Shown: in pieces, positions 22,380 through 37,256 of the stretch | Layout: each line of letters starts with the position of its first letter | Numbering within the stretch: position 1 is the stretch's first letter | Virus record (IMG/VR): IMGVR_UViG_3300020055_000005 | Span: 1-64,000 of that record | DNA length: 64,000 nucleotides | Direction: 5' to 3' (one strand) | DNA from: a virus | Notes under the pieces: model-generated | The model's database searches: none | The model's input: only the letters and a program-made list of their open reading frames with translations | What the model was told of the DNA's origin: nothing | Translations under genes and position numbers: made by a program

Positions 22380-23081
22380 TTAGAAGATTGGGTTCCCCTC
22401 TGAGTCTATTTCAAATAGAAATTCATCAGGGTCGTGGTCAAAATTACTACAATTACTTCCATCAGGATGATGGTATTTTACTTCCATATTAAATGAGATA
22501 CTATAACGATCTTTGTTACTCATGTTAGGTTCAACCATGTGCATCAAACCACTTGGGAACAGAATTAACCTTCCACTTCTTGGTTCGATATTATGACTCA
22601 TTCTAAACCTAGGTGAATTAGGATGGTCAGAAACCACCTTTGTGTCTTTATCTATTAATGAAATGCATCCTTCATCACCCTCTGCATGAACGTAAAATAC
22701 ACCACTATACCAACAACCATTATGTAAGTGTGGAGCATTCCATGCAGAAAAATCGTTAATATTAGCCCATGAGTTACCTATATTTACTGTACACTTAGTT
22801 TGGTCTATACGATGAAACGGTAAAACCTCATCTTTAAATTGTTGTTCTATCTTTCTCATCAATTGACTAAGTGCAGGATTTGATTCACAACCATCTACTG
22901 ATTGCCATCCTGTATATTGGTTAGATACTTGTCTACCAGCAGGGTCTCTCTTTCTCATACCATCCATTGCATCTCTGCACATTTTAAGATAGTCTTCAGT
23001 GACACCTCTACGTTGATCTAGTTCAGGGTCTAATAAATCCTTCTCAAATACAAAGTTTGGAAATAATAATCTAACTGCCAT
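22380..23081 (-). CDS. Putative 2OG-Fe(II) oxygenase (TIGR02466-like)
   Basis: A 233-residue protein of the phage-rich 2OG-Fe(II) oxygenase group. The iron site reads HLHNGCWYSGVFYV (H118, H120) and FPSGLMHMVEPN (H181); the 2-oxoglutarate arginine is probably R192 in DRYSISFN. The first ligand motif has His where HxD is usual, a feature of the TIGR02466 group as I know it. It is the first of a tightly packed block of modifying enzymes and overlaps the next gene by 11 bases. The substrate is unknown. Confidence 0.82.
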   Translation of the reverse strand: MAVRLLFPNFVFEKDLLDPELDQRRGVTEDYLKMCRDAMDGMRKRDPAGRQVSNQYTGWQSVDGCESNPALSQLMRKIEQQFKDEVLPFHRIDQTKCTVNIGNSWANINDFSAWNAPHLHNGCWYSGVFYVHAEGDEGCISLIDKDTKVVSDHPNSPRFRMSHNIEPRSGRLILFPSGLMHMVEPNMSNKDRYSISFNMEVKYHHPDGSNCSNFDHDPDEFLFEIDSEGNPIF

Positions 23082-23964
23082 TATCTAAATCTAACTCCAA
23101 TTGATTTTCTGTTTCTTCACTTACAACTTTATGAAAAGGACATTCAGGTGGTGGTGATTCTTCTTTATAAAACTTACCCTTCGGTTGCCAGTATTCACCT
23201 TTTCTATATGCACCCATTTGTAATGATACATTTCTTTCTTCATCACTCAACCCCTTATGTCGACCCCACTCATCCATAGATTTTGCATATTTACCATCTA
23301 AGTGAGTTGTCACACTAGAACGATTCTCTTGAAATGTTTGATGGTCGAACTGCATGTACGATGCATTCCATTCTTCTCTTTTGAAAGGTACAACCTGACA
23401 TAGTGGTGTACCTTCCTTAATGGTAAATGATTTCTGTACCTTTGGATAAAATATGATTTGTGCATTATCCATGTTACTGTTAAATGTATCAGTATCAATA
23501 ATTCCTTGCCATGTTGCAAAGTATTGATTCTGAAATAAGAAGGGGTCTAAGTAGAAACATGAATAGCCTGGAGGTGTAACAATGTTCCAAGGGTTTCTCA
23601 TTTTGAATGCATCATTGACAGGGCCATGAGTACCCATGTATTCAAATGCATTTCCCATTTGTGTATGATTATGTGAAGGTGATGCATAACCATCGTTCTT
23701 ATCTTTAGTATAGAACTCTGTTGAATCGGAATCTGTTCCTACACCACAGTTAACTTCCATATCTCTATTTGCAACGAGATACCATCCCATCTTTAACCAG
23801 TCATCCATTGCAGGACAGGCACGTACTGTTGTTATACGTTTTCCATGTACATCCATACCAACCTTGAGGGTTTTCCACCACTCAGGTTGAACCGTTTTCG
23901 CAAGAACTGGTCTAAAGTTCTTAACCGTGTCCGTATCGTATGAATGGAATTCTATCGTCGGCAC
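23071..23964 (-). CDS. DUF6065-like protein, probable cupin-type fold
   Basis: A 297-residue protein with an N-terminal PEWWKTLK motif, a central segment NPWNIVTPPGYSCFYLDP, and FTIKEGTPLCQVVPFKREEW. These resemble the DUF6065 family, which has a beta-barrel core and no proven function. H98 in SHNHTQMG and nearby His and Asp residues might bind a metal. A cysteine-containing PECPFHK lies near the C-terminus. It overlaps both neighbouring oxygenase genes, so all three are probably made together. The family call is from memory of the motif pattern. Confidence 0.6.
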   Translation of the reverse strand: MPTIEFHSYDTDTVKNFRPVLAKTVQPEWWKTLKVGMDVHGKRITTVRACPAMDDWLKMGWYLVANRDMEVNCGVGTDSDSTEFYTKDKNDGYASPSHNHTQMGNAFEYMGTHGPVNDAFKMRNPWNIVTPPGYSCFYLDPFLFQNQYFATWQGIIDTDTFNSNMDNAQIIFYPKVQKSFTIKEGTPLCQVVPFKREEWNASYMQFDHQTFQENRSSVTTHLDGKYAKSMDEWGRHKGLSDEERNVSLQMGAYRKGEYWQPKGKFYKEESPPPECPFHKVVSEETENQLELDLDNGS

Positions 23965-24664
23965 TGTACTTCGTCCTCCTGTCTGTTAATTTAACCTCGT
24001 CTCCTCTGATTACTATGGAACGTCTATCCATGTATCTTGCACTTTCATTTGGTGCATCTGCACCATGAGGTATTCTACCATCAAATAAAACTAAACGATT
24101 TGGTACAAATTCCACTTCTGCAATTTGATGGTTTTTAATATGTTCGTTTCTTCCTTGAAGACCCTGTTGTGGTGAATCATAAATTCTTAATGTACCACCC
24201 CATTTAGGGTTCCAAAATCTGTTATAATAATATAAAAAAGATAAGTTCCAATCATCATGATCATCACAATCTGAGTGTGTAGTTCCATGACATCCATGTG
24301 TTTGAGAATTTAAACCTGCATACTGAAATCTAACCCACTCAAATTCAAAATCTGTTTGAAGTTTTCTATTAAACCAAATCGGAACGACTGCATCTAAACG
24401 ATCAATATCTCCTTCAAGATTGTCCCCACGAAGAAAACTTGCACCCCAAAAAGAATGCATGGGTAATCCTGTAGGATTGTCTCCACCGACTTGATTGGTT
24501 TTAGACCAAATTGATGTTCTAGTAAATAGGTTGTCTATGTGGTGATGAAGTTCATCACTTAAATAATTATCTATTACATAAACTTTATCTAAAGGCAACT
24601 CGCAAATTTTAAAAGGTTCGTCTAAGTAGACGACCTCTAATTGATCATCATCCTGTTTGACCAT
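23921..24664 (-). CDS. 2OG-Fe(II) oxygenase, prolyl-hydroxylase-like
   Basis: A 247-residue enzyme counted from the ATG at 24664. Iron ligands are H130 and D132 in THSDCDDHDDWNLSFLYYYN and H200 in LVLFDGRIPHGADAP; the cosubstrate arginine is within RRSIVIRG (214-220). The WGGTLRIYD strand between them is typical of P4H-like double-stranded beta-helix enzymes. The frame is open for 22 codons further upstream, to 24730, but that part is hydrophobic shadow sequence inside the neighbouring gene; AGGGA precedes the ATG at 24664. It overlaps the DUF6065-like gene by 44 bases. Confidence 0.82.
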   Translation of the reverse strand: MVKQDDDQLEVVYLDEPFKICELPLDKVYVIDNYLSDELHHHIDNLFTRTSIWSKTNQVGGDNPTGLPMHSFWGASFLRGDNLEGDIDRLDAVVPIWFNRKLQTDFEFEWVRFQYAGLNSQTHGCHGTTHSDCDDHDDWNLSFLYYYNRFWNPKWGGTLRIYDSPQQGLQGRNEHIKNHQIAEVEFVPNRLVLFDGRIPHGADAPNESARYMDRRSIVIRGDEVKLTDRRTKYSADDRIPFIRYGHG

Positions 24665-25235
24665 TTCCCTGCGTTTCCATATAAGAGTCAGGAGCAAGTA
24701 ACGGTGTTGGTATAACAACACAGTAGTCATCTACTTCCTTTAAGAAATCCTCTCTAGTGTTATTAATTTCATCTTCGATTTGTACATAACAACACCACAC
24801 TGCATCAGCATATTCTGCAACTCTTCTGGCCGCTGACCTTCTAGGATGTGAAGACCCTTCTCTACCTGCAAAAACAACTTCAATCAAATCATCAAAACCG
24901 TATCTATGCACAACCTCTTTAATGAATTCATGACAAATATTATTGATTTCTTGTTTGTGTTGTTGATTTAAATTAAAACCGATAGGTGGTTCAGAGTTTT
25001 CAATGTATAGTTCAATCGCATCCTTTTCTTCATCTGTTAAGGGAAGTGCATCTTGTTTTTCAAAATCTACACCATCTTTCCATTTTACAATCTTAATTTC
25101 TAAGTCTGCGTACACTAACATTTCATAATCAAAACCCAAGTCAGGTGCATCGCAATTGTCAAAACTGTATCTCAAACCATTAGGTTTAGTGATTTGTAGA
25201 TTACCGTCTTCTGTAAATATTAATTCACTTTTCAT
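24648..25235 (-). CDS. Unknown protein in the oxygenase-glycosyltransferase block
   Basis: A 195-residue soluble protein. The N-terminal part (MKSELIFTEDGNLQITKPNG) is beta-rich and acidic. The C-terminal half is helical, with HEFIKEVVHRYGFDD and a basic segment REGSSHPRRSAARR. No family is recognised. It overlaps the downstream oxygenase by 17 bases. GAGG lies about 10 bases before the ATG. Confidence 0.7.
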   Translation of the reverse strand: MKSELIFTEDGNLQITKPNGLRYSFDNCDAPDLGFDYEMLVYADLEIKIVKWKDGVDFEKQDALPLTDEEKDAIELYIENSEPPIGFNLNQQHKQEINNICHEFIKEVVHRYGFDDLIEVVFAGREGSSHPRRSAARRVAEYADAVWCCYVQIEDEINNTREDFLKEVDDYCVVIPTPLLAPDSYMETQGNGQTG

Positions 25236-25280: not shown

Positions 25281-26849
25281 TCAAGCAAGTACTCTCCATT
25301 TTTTATAGATGTCTAAATTATTTATGTGGTCACAATCCATACCTTCTACCCAAGGGCCTCCCCTAGTATAATGGATACCACTGAAATCCCACTTAACATC
25401 AGGGTCATCATATCCTTCTACAAATATGTATTTCTCAGGAATCTTACTGATCTTATCAGTCCATTCAAACTGATGGAGTTGTTTACCTGTCCAAGTGTTC
25501 ACTGTTTCAGGTGTAAGTTTTTTACAATCTTCATGACCATTATTAAATATCATCATACTAGACCATAATTTTTTTGGATAGTCTATGTTCACTTCTCCGT
25601 TAAACTTAGTTTCATCATGTTTATATTGAGGATACTGAATACATGCAACTGCATCATCAGGATGTAGATAATAGAACATAGGTAATAAAGTTTTTTCAAA
25701 AATAAAATCATCATCTATGAAAATACTAAAACCCTCGTAATTTTCTAAGTAAGGAATTAAAAACCTACTGTATGTAAACTCTGTTGATTGATTTGCATAC
25801 TCTCTAGTATATTCAGGTATCTTTGATACATCTAATAGTTTTATTTCAGGTTCGTATCTTATTTCATTAATTAAATGTCCTGCACCTGTATCTTTAAAAA
25901 TACTTTGTTCAATAGAAATTTTAGATACTTCTGCGAGGTTACCATGTCTACTATCGTAACCAATGTAAATGTTTAATGGTTTACCTTTACTTAAACTATG
26001 AACCTTTTTATTCCAATTGTAAATTTTTGGTCTGAACTCTTGCACATTCATCAGGTTACTGTTATATTCTAATGCACCCTGTATCAGTGTGAATGACACA
26101 TTATAGTGTCCACCCATACCCATTCTTTGTCCAAGGTCTTCTCGTAGACTTAATTTGGTTTTCCAATACTCCATGAAATCTTCGAATCCAATGGGTTCTT
26201 GATCGATGGTGTCGTATGCATCTGTAATACACAATTCCATATCAGGGTCACCCATCTCTTCAAAACAACCTGAACGTATAGAGCCTGGATGAATTCTTAG
26301 TTGATATCTACTATCTTTAACTAATTCTATTACTTGTCCTTGTATAGGTGCCCAAAGACCATCTTCTTGTATACTGTGTATTAACCAATGTGCCTTTGCA
26401 CTATGGTAATACATTGAGTTTAAAGATTCTAAATCTCGTTTGGATAATGCATATTCTTGTTCATTGACATGATCTCTTAAATCAATATACTCACCATTTG
26501 TATCGACTGTATCCATACCTGCAATTTGATTTTCATGATTGGGACGAGGTTTTTCAGTCCATCCTACTGGTAAGAATTTATGATAACATGGTGATTCGTT
26601 TTTTAGTCCATTGAACAAAGACCACTTTTCTCTTTTTCGTTCTTTCTCAAAATCTCCCCATTTAAAAATTTTTATAGGGGGTATAATTTCTTCAAAAACA
26701 TATTTAAGAATTGCGTATGTTTCTTTATCCTTGTATTCTTGATCTAATTGAAGTGACCCAAAATGATAATAGGTATCTTTCCAGTCAGTTTTACCTGCTA
26801 GTTCTTCTTTTGCTTGGGATACGGATTCTATTTTAATAAAATTACTCAT
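25281..26849 (-). CDS. Two-domain glycosyltransferase with an N-terminal HPGSIR domain
   Basis: A 522-residue protein. The C-terminal part from about 290 reads LNIYIGYDSRH...EVSKISIEQSI, then TEFTYSRFLIPYLENYEGFSIFIDDDF with an acidic DDD metal site at 379-381, as in GT-A glycosyltransferases that take nucleotide sugars. The N-terminal 280 residues include WAPIQGQVIELVKDSRYQLRIHPGSIR (motif HPGSIR at 187-192), a region also found in the gene at 62708-63544. The gene lies directly upstream of the unknown protein and oxygenases, and just downstream of the repeat-protein genes. Acceptor and sugar are unknown. Confidence 0.8.
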   Translation of the reverse strand: MSNFIKIESVSQAKEELAGKTDWKDTYYHFGSLQLDQEYKDKETYAILKYVFEEIIPPIKIFKWGDFEKERKREKWSLFNGLKNESPCYHKFLPVGWTEKPRPNHENQIAGMDTVDTNGEYIDLRDHVNEQEYALSKRDLESLNSMYYHSAKAHWLIHSIQEDGLWAPIQGQVIELVKDSRYQLRIHPGSIRSGCFEEMGDPDMELCITDAYDTIDQEPIGFEDFMEYWKTKLSLREDLGQRMGMGGHYNVSFTLIQGALEYNSNLMNVQEFRPKIYNWNKKVHSLSKGKPLNIYIGYDSRHGNLAEVSKISIEQSIFKDTGAGHLINEIRYEPEIKLLDVSKIPEYTREYANQSTEFTYSRFLIPYLENYEGFSIFIDDDFIFEKTLLPMFYYLHPDDAVACIQYPQYKHDETKFNGEVNIDYPKKLWSSMMIFNNGHEDCKKLTPETVNTWTGKQLHQFEWTDKISKIPEKYIFVEGYDDPDVKWDFSGIHYTRGGPWVEGMDCDHINNLDIYKKWRVLA

Positions 26850-26881: not shown

Positions 26882-27583
26882 CTATGTAATCGGTGTTGCT
26901 GGCCACTGTTGTGACAATACACCATCCCATCTTGCGACAGGAGTTCTACCTTGTCTAGCATACGTTGCAGGTTGTCTGTTCTGATATGTGAAAGGTGTTT
27001 GACCTTGTCTCGCATACGTACTAGGTTGTCTGTTTTGATATGTGAACGGTGTCTGCGAGTTCGAAGGATTTCTATATGTAAACGGCGACCTGTGATTATA
27101 TGTAGAAGGTTGTCTTGCGTTTGCAATATAAGGATACGGTTGTTGTGCATCCCTAATGTTAGGTTCCTGTGCATTCTTAATAGTAGGTTGTTGTCCATTT
27201 CTAATGTTAGGTTCTTGTGCATTCCTAATATTAGGTTCTTGTGCATTTACTGGATTTCTATATGTAAATGGTGACCTATAGTTATATGTAAACGGTTGTC
27301 TTGCATTTGCACGATATGGAACCCTATATGTAAATGGCACTCTATATGTAAAAGGTTGTCTCGCATTCGCAATATAAGGAACACGATATGTGAAAGGTGA
27401 CTGATAAGTCACAGGTTGTTGTGCGTTAGCAGGGTACCTTGCACTGTATGTGAAAGGAGACTGATAAGTTACAGGCTGTTGAGCATTCGCAGGATATCTT
27501 GCGTTGTAAGTAAACGGTGCTTGGCTGTTGACCGTGGCACGAGCCTGACCTTGCATCGATTGTCTGTGGAAACCTGTTGCCAT
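26882..27583 (-). CDS. Proline-rich tandem repeat protein, first copy
   Basis: A 233-residue protein made almost wholly of short degenerate repeats of 6-8 residues with an (N/Q/R)xP core, such as NAQEPNIR, NARQPFTY, HRSPFTYR and NARYPA. It has almost no acidic residues, many Tyr, Asn, Arg and Pro, and no cysteine. The regular spacing of Pro and Tyr suggests an extended fibrous structure. Three other genes here (27602, 35378, 36096) have the same repeats. It is probably a virion fibre component, and a candidate substrate of the oxygenases and glycosyltransferase encoded next to it. Confidence 0.75.
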   Translation of the reverse strand: MATGFHRQSMQGQARATVNSQAPFTYNARYPANAQQPVTYQSPFTYSARYPANAQQPVTYQSPFTYRVPYIANARQPFTYRVPFTYRVPYRANARQPFTYNYRSPFTYRNPVNAQEPNIRNAQEPNIRNGQQPTIKNAQEPNIRDAQQPYPYIANARQPSTYNHRSPFTYRNPSNSQTPFTYQNRQPSTYARQGQTPFTYQNRQPATYARQGRTPVARWDGVLSQQWPATPIT

Positions 27584-27601: not shown

Positions 27602-28099
27602 TTATTTCGTACTAATATTATGAACCATTAAACTATTTGCAAAGAAGTTATGATGTGGACTGTCTACACCAAAGTGATAAACCATCTCTTCATCTGCTTC
27701 TTCTATAGATTCAATAATTGACTCTGATAAATTTTGTTTTAAAATTGCATTGTTGATGTCTTTAATTGCATCACCGATCTGCAATTCTCCGTTGACTTCT
27801 TTCATGTCATCGGCATGTCCTAATTCTACTTCTTTATTCCAATCTTCTAAATTAATAACCTTCCATCCCTGATCTTCAACATAGAATGGATGACCACCTG
27901 TTACTTTTAACCACCCACCGTCTGTAAGTTGTAGTTTATAAACTTTACACTCTCTTGGTTCCATGACATTTGATACACTTACTCTTTCCAGTTCGTTACT
28001 TTCTAGATTAAGTGAATACACCACATCACCCACTTGGATGTTTTCTATAGGTGTCATTGAAGTGTCACCCATCCAAACTTGTGTTCCAGCAGCGAAACA
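27602..28099 (-). other. Hint domain coding segment
   Basis: Encodes residues 270-434 of the repeat protein. Visible blocks are: N-terminal CFAAGTQVWM, PIENIQVGDVVYSL, the TGGHPFYV block, and C-terminal VYHFGVDSPHHNFFANSLMVHN. No homing-endonuclease insertion is present. There are only 4 residues after HN, which fits a C-terminal bacterial-intein-like domain rather than an intein inside a host protein. Confidence 0.85.
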
Positions 28100-28906
28100 T
28101 CCTCCTCCACCGTAGAAGTAAACTGCTAAGAAACGGAAAGGATATGTATACGGTTGTTGCGAAGAACTAGGTTGTCTTGCGTTTGCAATATAAGGCACCC
28201 TATATGTAAACGGTGATCTAAATGCAACTGGTTGTCTTGCGTTAGCAATATAAGGTACTCGATATGTGAAAGGAGACCTAAATGCAACTGGTTGTCTTGC
28301 GTTTGCAGGATATCTAGCATTATACGTAAATGGTGTTTGACCGTTTGCAGGATATCTAGCATTTGCAGGATATCTAGCATCATACGTAAATGGTGTTTGT
28401 CCGTTTCTTATATTAGGTTGTTGTGCATTTACAGGGTTTCTATATGTAAATGGAGACCTATGGTTATAGGTAAACGGTGATCTGTGTTGATACGTAAATG
28501 GTGACCTATGTTGATATGTAAATGGTGACCTATGTTGATACGTAAATGGTGATCGACCTGTTGCCTGATACGTGAAAGGTGTTTGTGCGTTCCTTATATT
28601 AGGTTCTTGTGCATTTACTGGATTCTGATATTCTGCAGGTTGTCTTGCGTTTGCAATGTAAGGTGTTTGTGCGTTTGCAATGTAAGGATAAGGTTGTTGT
28701 GCGTTAGCAATATAAGGCGTCTGACTGTTTGCAATGTAAGGATAAGGATTTTGAGTTGCTTCTTGACCTGATGCATTATTCCACCCTGTAGGTGTCTTAA
28801 TATAAATCTGATCAACTGCTTTCCATGCTGTGGGAGTCTTTACCCATGCACCCCTAGTTGCATTCCAACCTGTAGGTGTTTTTACGCTTTGATTACCTGA
28901 TGCCAT
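27602..28906 (-). CDS. Proline-rich repeat protein with C-terminal Hint (intein-like) domain
   Basis: The 434-residue protein has three parts. Residues 1-50 hold three copies of a (V/I)KTPT(G/A)W motif. Residues 55-255 are (N/Q/R)xP repeats like those of its neighbours, including four consecutive RSPFTY units. Residues 270-434 form a Hint domain: it opens with C270 in GGGGCFAAGTQV, has the GHPFYV histidine block, and ends FFANSLMVHN followed by only ISTK. Hint domains cleave their own N-terminal peptide bond through the first cysteine. The residue after HN is Ile, so normal protein splicing is not expected. Cleavage or ester transfer of the repeat part is the likely outcome. Confidence 0.85.
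   Translation of the reverse strand: MASGNQSVKTPTGWNATRGAWVKTPTAWKAVDQIYIKTPTGWNNASGQEATQNPYPYIANSQTPYIANAQQPYPYIANAQTPYIANARQPAEYQNPVNAQEPNIRNAQTPFTYQATGRSPFTYQHRSPFTYQHRSPFTYQHRSPFTYNHRSPFTYRNPVNAQQPNIRNGQTPFTYDARYPANARYPANGQTPFTYNARYPANARQPVAFRSPFTYRVPYIANARQPVAFRSPFTYRVPYIANARQPSSSQQPYTYPFRFLAVYFYGGGGCFAAGTQVWMGDTSMTPIENIQVGDVVYSLNLESNELERVSVSNVMEPRECKVYKLQLTDGGWLKVTGGHPFYVEDQGWKVINLEDWNKEVELGHADDMKEVNGELQIGDAIKDINNAILKQNLSESIIESIEEADEEMVYHFGVDSPHHNFFANSLMVHNISTK
28477..28548 (-). repeat. Three tandem 24-base repeats inside the Hint-protein gene
   Basis: Three adjacent 24-base units (28477-28500, 28501-28524, 28525-28548) differ at only a few positions. Each encodes one RSPFTYQH unit. 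The near identity suggests recent expansion by slippage or recombination. Confidence 0.85.
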
Positions 28907-35374: not shown

Positions 35375-35382
35375 TATTTATA
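35375..35382 (-). promoter_or_regulatory. Late promoter 5 bases before the ATG of 35369
   Basis: A perfect TATAAATA followed by GTTAT and ATG. It overlaps the last codon and stop of the repeat-protein gene at 35378. Confidence 0.7.
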
Positions 35383-36094
35383 CCTGAGTGTTACTTGGGT
35401 TCTTAGAGAACCTTGCAGTTGGTACAGATTGATGTATTTTTTCTACAGTACCTGTTTTATTTACGTACACTTCACTTAATTTTCTAAGTGTACCATTATC
35501 ATTTACATATACTCCTTTCACTTTTGCAATCGGGCCTACAGTTCTAGTAGTTGAATATGGTGCTTGATATGTAAATGGTGACCTCACCGTGTAAGGGAAC
35601 TGATAGGTTACTTGATATATAAACGGTGATTGTGCATTCGCAATATATGGTGATTGTGCATTTGCAGTGACCCTATATGTTGACGGTGATCTATGTTGAT
35701 ACGTAAACGGATTCCTTGCGTTTGCAGGATTGGGTTGTTGTGCATTCCTAATATTAGGTTCTTGTGCATTTGCAATATAAGGACTTGGATTTTGTGCCTG
35801 ATATGTATTAGGTTGTCTTGCGTTTCCAGTCGCTCTATAAATTAAAGGTTGTCTTGCATTTCTAATATTAGGTTCTTGTGCAGATGTAGGGTTTCTATAT
35901 GTAAACGGAGACCTATGGTTATAGGTGAAAGGACTCTGTTTAGTTGCACGATATGTAAATGGTGACCTTGCAATATACGGATAAGGTGTTTGACCAATAA
36001 GAGGTTGTCTTGCCTGATAAGTCGTTTGACCTTGCGCTTGATAAGTTGTAGGTTGTTGTGCAATATATGGTATTTGATAGTATCCTGTTGCCAT
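35378..36094 (-). CDS. Proline-rich tandem repeat protein, third copy
   Basis: A 238-residue protein. Residues 1-175 consist of (N/Q/R)xP repeats (NAQEPNIR, NARQPLIY, HRSPFTYR, NAQSPYIA). The last 60 residues differ: VKGVYVNDNGTLRKLSEVYVNKTGTVEKIHQ contains two copies of a VYVN..GT..K motif, similar to the KTPTGW-type small repeats of the Hint protein. It is adjacent to another repeat protein at 36096. Probably a virion fibre. Confidence 0.75.
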   Translation of the reverse strand: MATGYYQIPYIAQQPTTYQAQGQTTYQARQPLIGQTPYPYIARSPFTYRATKQSPFTYNHRSPFTYRNPTSAQEPNIRNARQPLIYRATGNARQPNTYQAQNPSPYIANAQEPNIRNAQQPNPANARNPFTYQHRSPSTYRVTANAQSPYIANAQSPFIYQVTYQFPYTVRSPFTYQAPYSTTRTVGPIAKVKGVYVNDNGTLRKLSEVYVNKTGTVEKIHQSVPTARFSKNPSNTQV

Positions 36095-36095
36095 T

Positions 36096-37256
36096 TTATA
36101 TTCCTAATGCCTGTCCATAAGTTGCGTTTAATGATATCATACCATGACTATATGTTGATGTATATACATTATTACTTGAATCCACACCCTTAACTGTGAA
36201 ACTAACACCTTGTGCTTGTGTCCATGTAGTACCATTAGGGTTTGGGCCGTTTGGTGTTACACATGCCTTCCACAGGAATTGTCTTGCACCACTAGTTGGA
36301 ACACTATAGTAAGTACCTGAACTATATCCAGCGTTAGTTGGTAATGGCCCTGAACTATAAGAGTAACAATAACTTGAACTACAGTCTTTACCACTACATG
36401 CTTGACTTGATACATCATATTTTACTGTAAATGTGGAACTGGTTGTCAATAGACCTTGATATAAAATGTAATCAGAATAAACAGTCGCCTGATATTGATT
36501 TGTATAACCAAACCACAATGCCTTAATAGAACTTTGGGCAGTTGCATTTGAGAACTCCATTGAACACCCTACCTCAGGTGGAGGGTTTGTGGATGCTCTT
36601 GATTGCGTAGTATACCAGTACCCAGCTGAACCAGTACCAGGCCCCCAAACTTGTTCTAGTGGGTCATAGATATATGCAGCTGGTTGTCTTGCATTATAAG
36701 ACGATCTTGCGTTTGCAATGTATGGATAAGGTGTTCTTCCTATAAATGGAGACTGATATGAATATGGTGTTTGACCAATTGTAGGCACTGGTTGTTGTGC
36801 GTTACTAGGTGATTGATATGACTGTTGTGCATTTCTAATCACTGGTTGTTGTGCATTTGTAGGATTTCTATATGTAAACGGTGACCTATAGTTGTACGTA
36901 AACGGTGATTGTTTATTTGCTGGTACCTGATATGTAAATGGTGTCTGCGAATTTGCAATATAAGGATTCGCTTGTTGTGCCGAATATGTAAATGGTGATC
37001 TGTGTTGATAAGTAAACGGAGACCTAACAGTGTAATTGAAAGGTTGTTGTGCGTTTCTTATAAACGGAGATTGTTGAACAGCAGGTGTCCTATATGTTAC
37101 AGGTTGTCTGTTGTTGTATGTTAGGGGTTGTCTTGCCTGTGCAGGTGTTCTACCAGTTGCCTGTTTGGTTTCAGGTGATTGTGCGTTAACTACTGCTTGC
37201 CCTTGATAGGGTTGTTGGAAAGTCGTCCCTGTGTTTATATAGATTTCATCAGCCAT
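36096..37256 (-). CDS. Proline-rich tandem repeat protein with C-terminal globular domain, fourth copy
   Basis: A 386-residue protein. Residues 20-195 are (N/Q/R)xP repeats. Residues 200-386 form a different domain, starting YIYDPLEQVWGPGTGSAGYWY and rich in Tyr, Ser and Thr, with five cysteines including a cluster in SSQACSGKDCSSSYCYS. The C-terminal domain could be the distal receptor-binding or attachment part. It follows the previous structural gene by one base and is closely packed with the third copy. Confidence 0.75.
   Translation of the reverse strand: MADEIYINTGTTFQQPYQGQAVVNAQSPETKQATGRTPAQARQPLTYNNRQPVTYRTPAVQQSPFIRNAQQPFNYTVRSPFTYQHRSPFTYSAQQANPYIANSQTPFTYQVPANKQSPFTYNYRSPFTYRNPTNAQQPVIRNAQQSYQSPSNAQQPVPTIGQTPYSYQSPFIGRTPYPYIANARSSYNARQPAAYIYDPLEQVWGPGTGSAGYWYTTQSRASTNPPPEVGCSMEFSNATAQSSIKALWFGYTNQYQATVYSDYILYQGLLTTSSTFTVKYDVSSQACSGKDCSSSYCYSYSSGPLPTNAGYSSGTYYSVPTSGARQFLWKACVTPNGPNPNGTTWTQAQGVSFTVKGVDSSNNVYTSTYSHGMISLNATYGQALGI

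Follow-up and report, generated by a model that had tools for sequence, protein, structure and literature searches.

A Hint domain at the C-terminus of a proline-rich repeat protein from a marine T4-like phage may carry its own acyl acceptor, a lysine in the short tail that follows the domain. The gene is located on the minus strand of IMG/VR virus record IMGVR_UViG_3300020055_000005 (151,189 bases), positions 1 to 64,000 of which make up the stretch analysed here (the window). A lysine was found downstream of the terminal His-Asn (HN) in 80 of 80 distinct C-terminal phage Hints, representing 32 clusters at 50% identity. The best explanation, to which we assign a probability of about 0.5, is thioester formation at Gly269/Cys270 and cyclisation of Asn430, with the tail lysine as acceptor, a chemistry that we infer from these comparisons.

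The Hint domain has an intact active site and is under purifying selection

The 434-residue protein begins with three [VI]KTPTGW-like units, followed by about 210 proline-rich repeat residues, a GGGG tract (G266-G269), the Hint domain and the tail ISTK. The domain reads CFAAGTQVWM...VTGGHPFYV...HNFFANSLMVHN, then ISTK. Cys270, the B-block VTGGHPFYV (with T336 and H339) and the C-terminal MVHN (H429 and N430) are all present, as stated in an original prediction made from the DNA letters and ORF translations of the window. The fusion of a Hint domain to the end of a proline-rich repeat protein, also proposed there, is supported by the open reading frame (ORF), its translation and profile searches, which that prediction had suggested for typing the domain. 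Pfam Intein_splicing matched residues 280-430 with 45.1 bits (cut-off 35.8) and TIGR01445 (intein_Nterm) scored 25.8 (cut-off 24.5); since both exceed their cut-offs, the identity of the domain as a Hint is far beyond chance. The PT-HINT profile reached 17.3 bits, under its cut-off of 27.7, and just ISTK follows the Hint, with no toxin domain.

The closest solved sequence was 2lwy, a bacterial intein-like (BIL) domain (1.3e-9). Modelling of the Hint with AlphaFold2 and a 49-row alignment gave a predicted local distance difference test score (pLDDT) of 90.3. Foldseek with this model returned BIL2 of Tetrahymena BUBL1 as top match (E 5e-11), followed by DnaB inteins, gp41-1 and 2lwy, with Hedgehog ranking far lower. 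The Hedgehog Hog domain is a C-terminal Hint after Gly-Cys-Phe that passes its thioester to an acceptor. The window Hint shares this placement, but it keeps the terminal His-Asn and ends four residues behind it, leaving no sterol-recognition region.

Relatives of the protein were reached by two independent routes, via the neighbouring neck gene and via the N-terminal module. From this family 24 distinct Hints were collected without use of active-site residues. Cys1 and [TS]xxH are present in 24/24, consistent with the original prediction of an intact apparatus for N-terminal cleavage, and HN in 23/24; L213, the one family Hint without HN, likewise has no lysine after that point. A wider alignment comprised 49 Hints with 22-55% identity to the window domain. 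Its sole invariant columns were C1, F2, the B-block His and H-N, of which C, F and HN had partly served to select the rows, whereas the B-block His had not. The ratio of nonsynonymous to synonymous substitution rates (dN/dS) was 0.12-0.23 in seven of 12 pairs (the remaining five, probably saturated, gave no value), which indicates purifying selection on the domain. A decayed, inactive intein would fit the missing +1 nucleophile and the missing endonuclease domain. However, Cys1, TxxH and HN are kept across this range of identities and dN/dS is low; on both grounds we rejected decay as very improbable.

The residue following HN is Ile in the window Hint, and none of 23 family Hints has Cys, Ser or Thr there. 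As claimed before, with only ISTK behind HN and no +1 nucleophile, this is not a normal intein. Because Cys1, TxxH and HN are kept, the +1 residue is never Cys, Ser or Thr and dN/dS is low, the domain is classified, by its sequence, as an intact, selected and optional A-type BIL-like module, and a standard intein is excluded. A-type BIL domains such as that of C. thermocellum (PDB 2lwy) share the Hint fold, Cys1, TxxH and the terminal His-Asn, require no +1 nucleophile, have no endonuclease and reside in variable host proteins. Variability was also found here, with family proteins ending in a Hint, in a different domain or in no additional domain at all. The window Hint differs in its location at the Gly tract of a phage tail-region protein and in the universal downstream lysine, and its activity is a prediction. 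With 161 residues (151-161 across the family) it compares to 130-155 for A-type BIL domains (PMC9185962). Class 1 inteins (DnaB, gp41-1) are alike in fold, in the A, B, F and G blocks and in having clean presence/absence alleles, seen here in L015 and L016 versus the window; the window Hint differs by lacking a +1 Cys, Ser or Thr and an endonuclease and by its C-terminal location in a non-conserved protein.

The Hint domain is optional and leaves a precise empty site

The family gene lies beside neck genes, at the same place in other marine T4-like phages, and its N-terminal module has 286 relatives in IMG/VR. Neither the full protein nor this module matched any of 50,697 annotated phage records; a cultured near relative is therefore absent. 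Different proteins occupy the equivalent position in phages Mosig and HTVC008M.

The C-terminus of the family protein behaves as a cassette: it consists of a Hint, a short Gly-rich end without domain, or an unrelated domain. Close relatives end in GGGGGGGG-FFPQQLK, where the window phage has GGGG-[Hint]-ISTK. An empty site is seen in L015 and L016, which read ...VVYFYGGGGGGGGFFPQQLK-stop compared with ...AVYFYGGGG-[C270...N430]-ISTK-stop in the window. In the DNA, similarity extends up to the last Gly codon, is lost across the Hint and is back at the final AAA-TAA-TGAGG. A tree of neck proteins places the Hint-bearing window as sister to the Hint-less L015 and L016 (support 93/92), and the best tree needs a minimum of three changes to account for which phages have the Hint. 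L084 and L163 have identical neck proteins and differ in Hint presence, although the whole gene differs there too.

A lysine follows HN in Gly-tract Hints

The lysine rule was spotted in a first set, with lysine in 49/49 distinct C-terminal Hint tails; 29 validation domains and two annotated phage records were collected afterwards. Two new pattern scans, which used the N-side only, revealed lysine in 29/29 additional distinct domains. The annotated records were NCTB (BN7874_132, tail APVDQKH) and Erwinia phage pEa_SNUABM_35 (gp105, tail TDIVAKAEKT), whose Hint protein is a 'virion structural protein' with collagen-like repeats. The tails are a few residues long and otherwise unconserved, the runner-up residue being Gly (44% of clusters). 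In a control, lysine was found within the last 3-12 residues of 1,457 other ORFs in 14-40%, and the notion that lysine is merely common at C-termini was thus rejected. Against this control the joint chance of lysine in all 32 clusters is about 10^-17.5, with the clusters correcting only partly for kinship; after shuffling of residues among tails, lysine in every tail was obtained 0 times in 20,000. That any basic residue would suffice was likewise rejected, as Arg occurs in 22% of clusters only. Within the family, lysine was present in 24/24 Hint tails versus 14/28 Hint-less ends (Fisher 2e-5, uncorrected for relatedness).

As the wider sets came mostly via Gly tracts, the rule is established for Gly-tract Hints alone. 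Generic viral Hints found by their HN end only have Cys, Ser or Thr at +1 in 72/80, and lysine within eight residues in 17%. In cellular genomes (bacteria and archaea), 56 of 59 Gly-tract Hints have lysine at +1, +2 or +3, mostly as HN-K-GGG. A widespread class of Gly-tract Hints in phages, bacteria and archaea may thus use the side chain of the lysine behind HN as acceptor and leave an isopeptide, a generalisation that we put at slightly below even odds. We found no paper describing the lysine rule in searches of one open-access library, the founding BIL papers (Amitai 2003, Dassa 2004) lying outside this search, and its novelty is provisional.

Further arrangements were observed. In cellular genomes, tandem Hints are joined by just HN-KG(G)-C or HN-KGGGGG-C (L541, L557, L560, L539, L566, L583); they occur in Legionella and in archaeal metagenome-assembled genomes, and several of the proteins share a C-terminal WYYxxxRA-like motif. 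Marine phages contain a subclass of terminal Gly-tract Hints without HN (L113, L171, L190, L444 and others), many ending in NVNILNA, with no lysine among the last seven residues. In L090, L096, L116, L127, L164 and others, a Hint is inserted near the N-terminus of long proteins that resemble the tail-tip protein gpJ, before GGGGK, and the +1 residue is Gly or Ala. One T4-like phage has a Hint near the end of a structural protein (L003:6747-8522, GTGGCC...VVHNKTADN), and the next ORF, which begins 60 bases downstream, resembles its continuation.

Predicted fate of the Gly thioester

In the favoured mechanism, Cys270 would attack the carbonyl of Gly269 to form a thioester, Asn430 would cyclise and cut the chain before Ile431, and the epsilon-amine of Lys434 would take the acyl group, replacing the missing +1 Cys, Ser or Thr. 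The reaction would be expected to release the Hint and to leave the repeats, with GGGG, attached to the tail lysine through an isopeptide bond. C-terminal cleavage combined with a built-in amine acceptor is likely, because HN is kept in nearly all family Hints and the four-residue tail holds the conserved lysine. Because the repeats and this lysine belong to one polypeptide, the most economical outcome is a repeat protein that regains its tail through an isopeptide, and such rejoining alone would not link fibre proteins to one another. The conserved lysine suggests an as yet undescribed way for intein-like domains to join protein ends. The best structural match, BIL2 of BUBL1 (PDB 6tmm, 6y75), has been reported to join a ubiquitin-like C-terminus to the epsilon-amine of lysine as an isopeptide (PMC8616854). 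BIL2, however, sits between ubiquitin-like domains and conjugates them, whereas the window Hint has only a short tail on its C-side.

Several points weigh against the lysine as acceptor. In cells it occupies +1 to +3, but in phages its distance from HN varies and it is often the last or next to last residue, a place that a fixed nucleophile need not take. Such spacing seriously complicates the idea of a fixed nucleophile, and the lysine may instead have a supporting role. Attachment of a tetrapeptide alone brings no obvious benefit. Lysine is also terminal in some Hint-less relatives, where the K-stop is homologous, and the related sequences are non-independent, for which clustering corrects partly.

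Plain autocleavage, with hydrolysis at Gly269/Cys270 and a cut at Asn430/Ile431, would make the Hint a C-terminal module that is shed to leave a repeat protein ending in Gly; the lysine would then assist, for example in docking or folding. It is rather unlikely: the conserved active site, the absent +1 nucleophile and the same Gly tract ending Hint-less relatives all fit it, but lysine, and not Arg, in every tail stays unexplained. Peptidase S74, the intramolecular chaperone of phage tail fibres, is a self-removing C-terminal module on tail proteins, and offers an analogy in this respect, with an unrelated fold and chemistry. BIL domains are reported to yield mostly cleaved products (PMC7664689), in favour of plain autocleavage.

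Improbable, too, is peptide-bond splicing without a side-chain nucleophile, in which the alpha-amine of Ile431 would attack the thioester after Asn cyclisation to give repeats-GGGG-ISTK. Its product would look like the Hint-less alleles, but the universal lysine would have no role. We consider it a little less probable still that, in line with the original prediction, the Gly thioester is passed to an outside nucleophile, either another virion protein or a host-surface amine. BIL2 is reported to conjugate to lysines of other substrates (PMC8616854), and several C-terminal Hints end long proteins whose N-termini are gpJ-like by eye; however, the same chain already holds an acceptor lysine. The original prediction correctly noted three further repeat proteins without Hint, and the entire record has one Hint, but its proposal that these neighbours act as transfer or cross-linking partners was not supported, as the adjoining repeat protein follows the gene with or without Hint in the loci examined.

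If lysine acceptance by the tail holds true, the ends of viral tail proteins would be ligated to lysine without ATP or a further enzyme, and covalent self-processing would become a feature of phage tail-end proteins. Acyl transfer from a Hint to lysine was described for one ciliate domain only among the reports found; the chemistry would then be common, recognisable by a simple sequence rule and a source of new self-contained ligation tools.

Genomic context

Neck protein identity is 54% with Pelagibacter phage Mosig and 52% with Methylophilales phage Melnitz, values that mark the record as a marine T4-like phage. When the entire record was searched with a Hint profile, C270-N430 was the single Hint returned. 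The repeats had no PHROG or Pfam match and no fold was predicted for them; the label 'fibre' derives from the position among tail genes alone and is unproven.

Table 1. Features of the repeat protein gene and of related genes in the window.
Feature	Position	Strand	Basis
Gene of proline-rich repeat protein with C-terminal Hint domain, 434 aa	27602..28906	-	ORF and translation
N-terminal module, residues 1-50, three [VI]KTPTGW-like units; family-defining	28757..28906	-	Alignment; 286 relatives in IMG/VR
Proline-rich repeats, residues 51-262 (e.g. RSPFTYQH, NAQEPNIR, ANARQPYI)	28121..28756	-	Translation; AlphaFold pLDDT about 33, no fold
Gly tract GGGG, residues 266-269, predicted acyl donor	28100..28111	-	Aligns with Gly tract of Hint-less relatives
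Hint domain C270-N430, 161 aa, exactly between Gly tract and tail	27617..28099	-	Pfam, NCBIfam, AlphaFold/Foldseek, empty site
Cys270, predicted thioester nucleophile	28097..28099	-	24/24 family Hints; invariant in 49-row alignment
B-block T336-G-G-H339	27890..27901	-	H invariant, T >90%
H429-N430, predicted Asn cyclisation site	27617..27622	-	23/24 family Hints
Tail ISTK, residues 431-434; Lys434 candidate amine acceptor	27605..27616	-	Lys in 80/80 distinct C-terminal Hint tails
Partner repeat protein without Hint, ends RWD...QQWPATP	26882..27583	-	Directly downstream in loci examined
Second repeat protein without Hint	35378..36094	-	
Third repeat protein without Hint	36096..37256	-	

In the loci examined, the family gene occurs once per locus and is followed by the partner repeat protein (Table 1), whose end, close to R-W-D-x(4)-Q-x-W-P-A-T-P, is conserved among the relatives examined. 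Two 2-oxoglutarate-Fe(II) oxygenase genes (22380-23081 and 23921-24730, minus strand) lie near the proline-rich repeat genes, and a phrog_28018 protein (25281-26849) adjoins them. A possible link is that the oxygenases hydroxylate the proline repeats. However, this association may be accidental, because Mosig and HTVC008M have similar oxygenases at the equivalent place and no match to the N-terminal module of the window protein.
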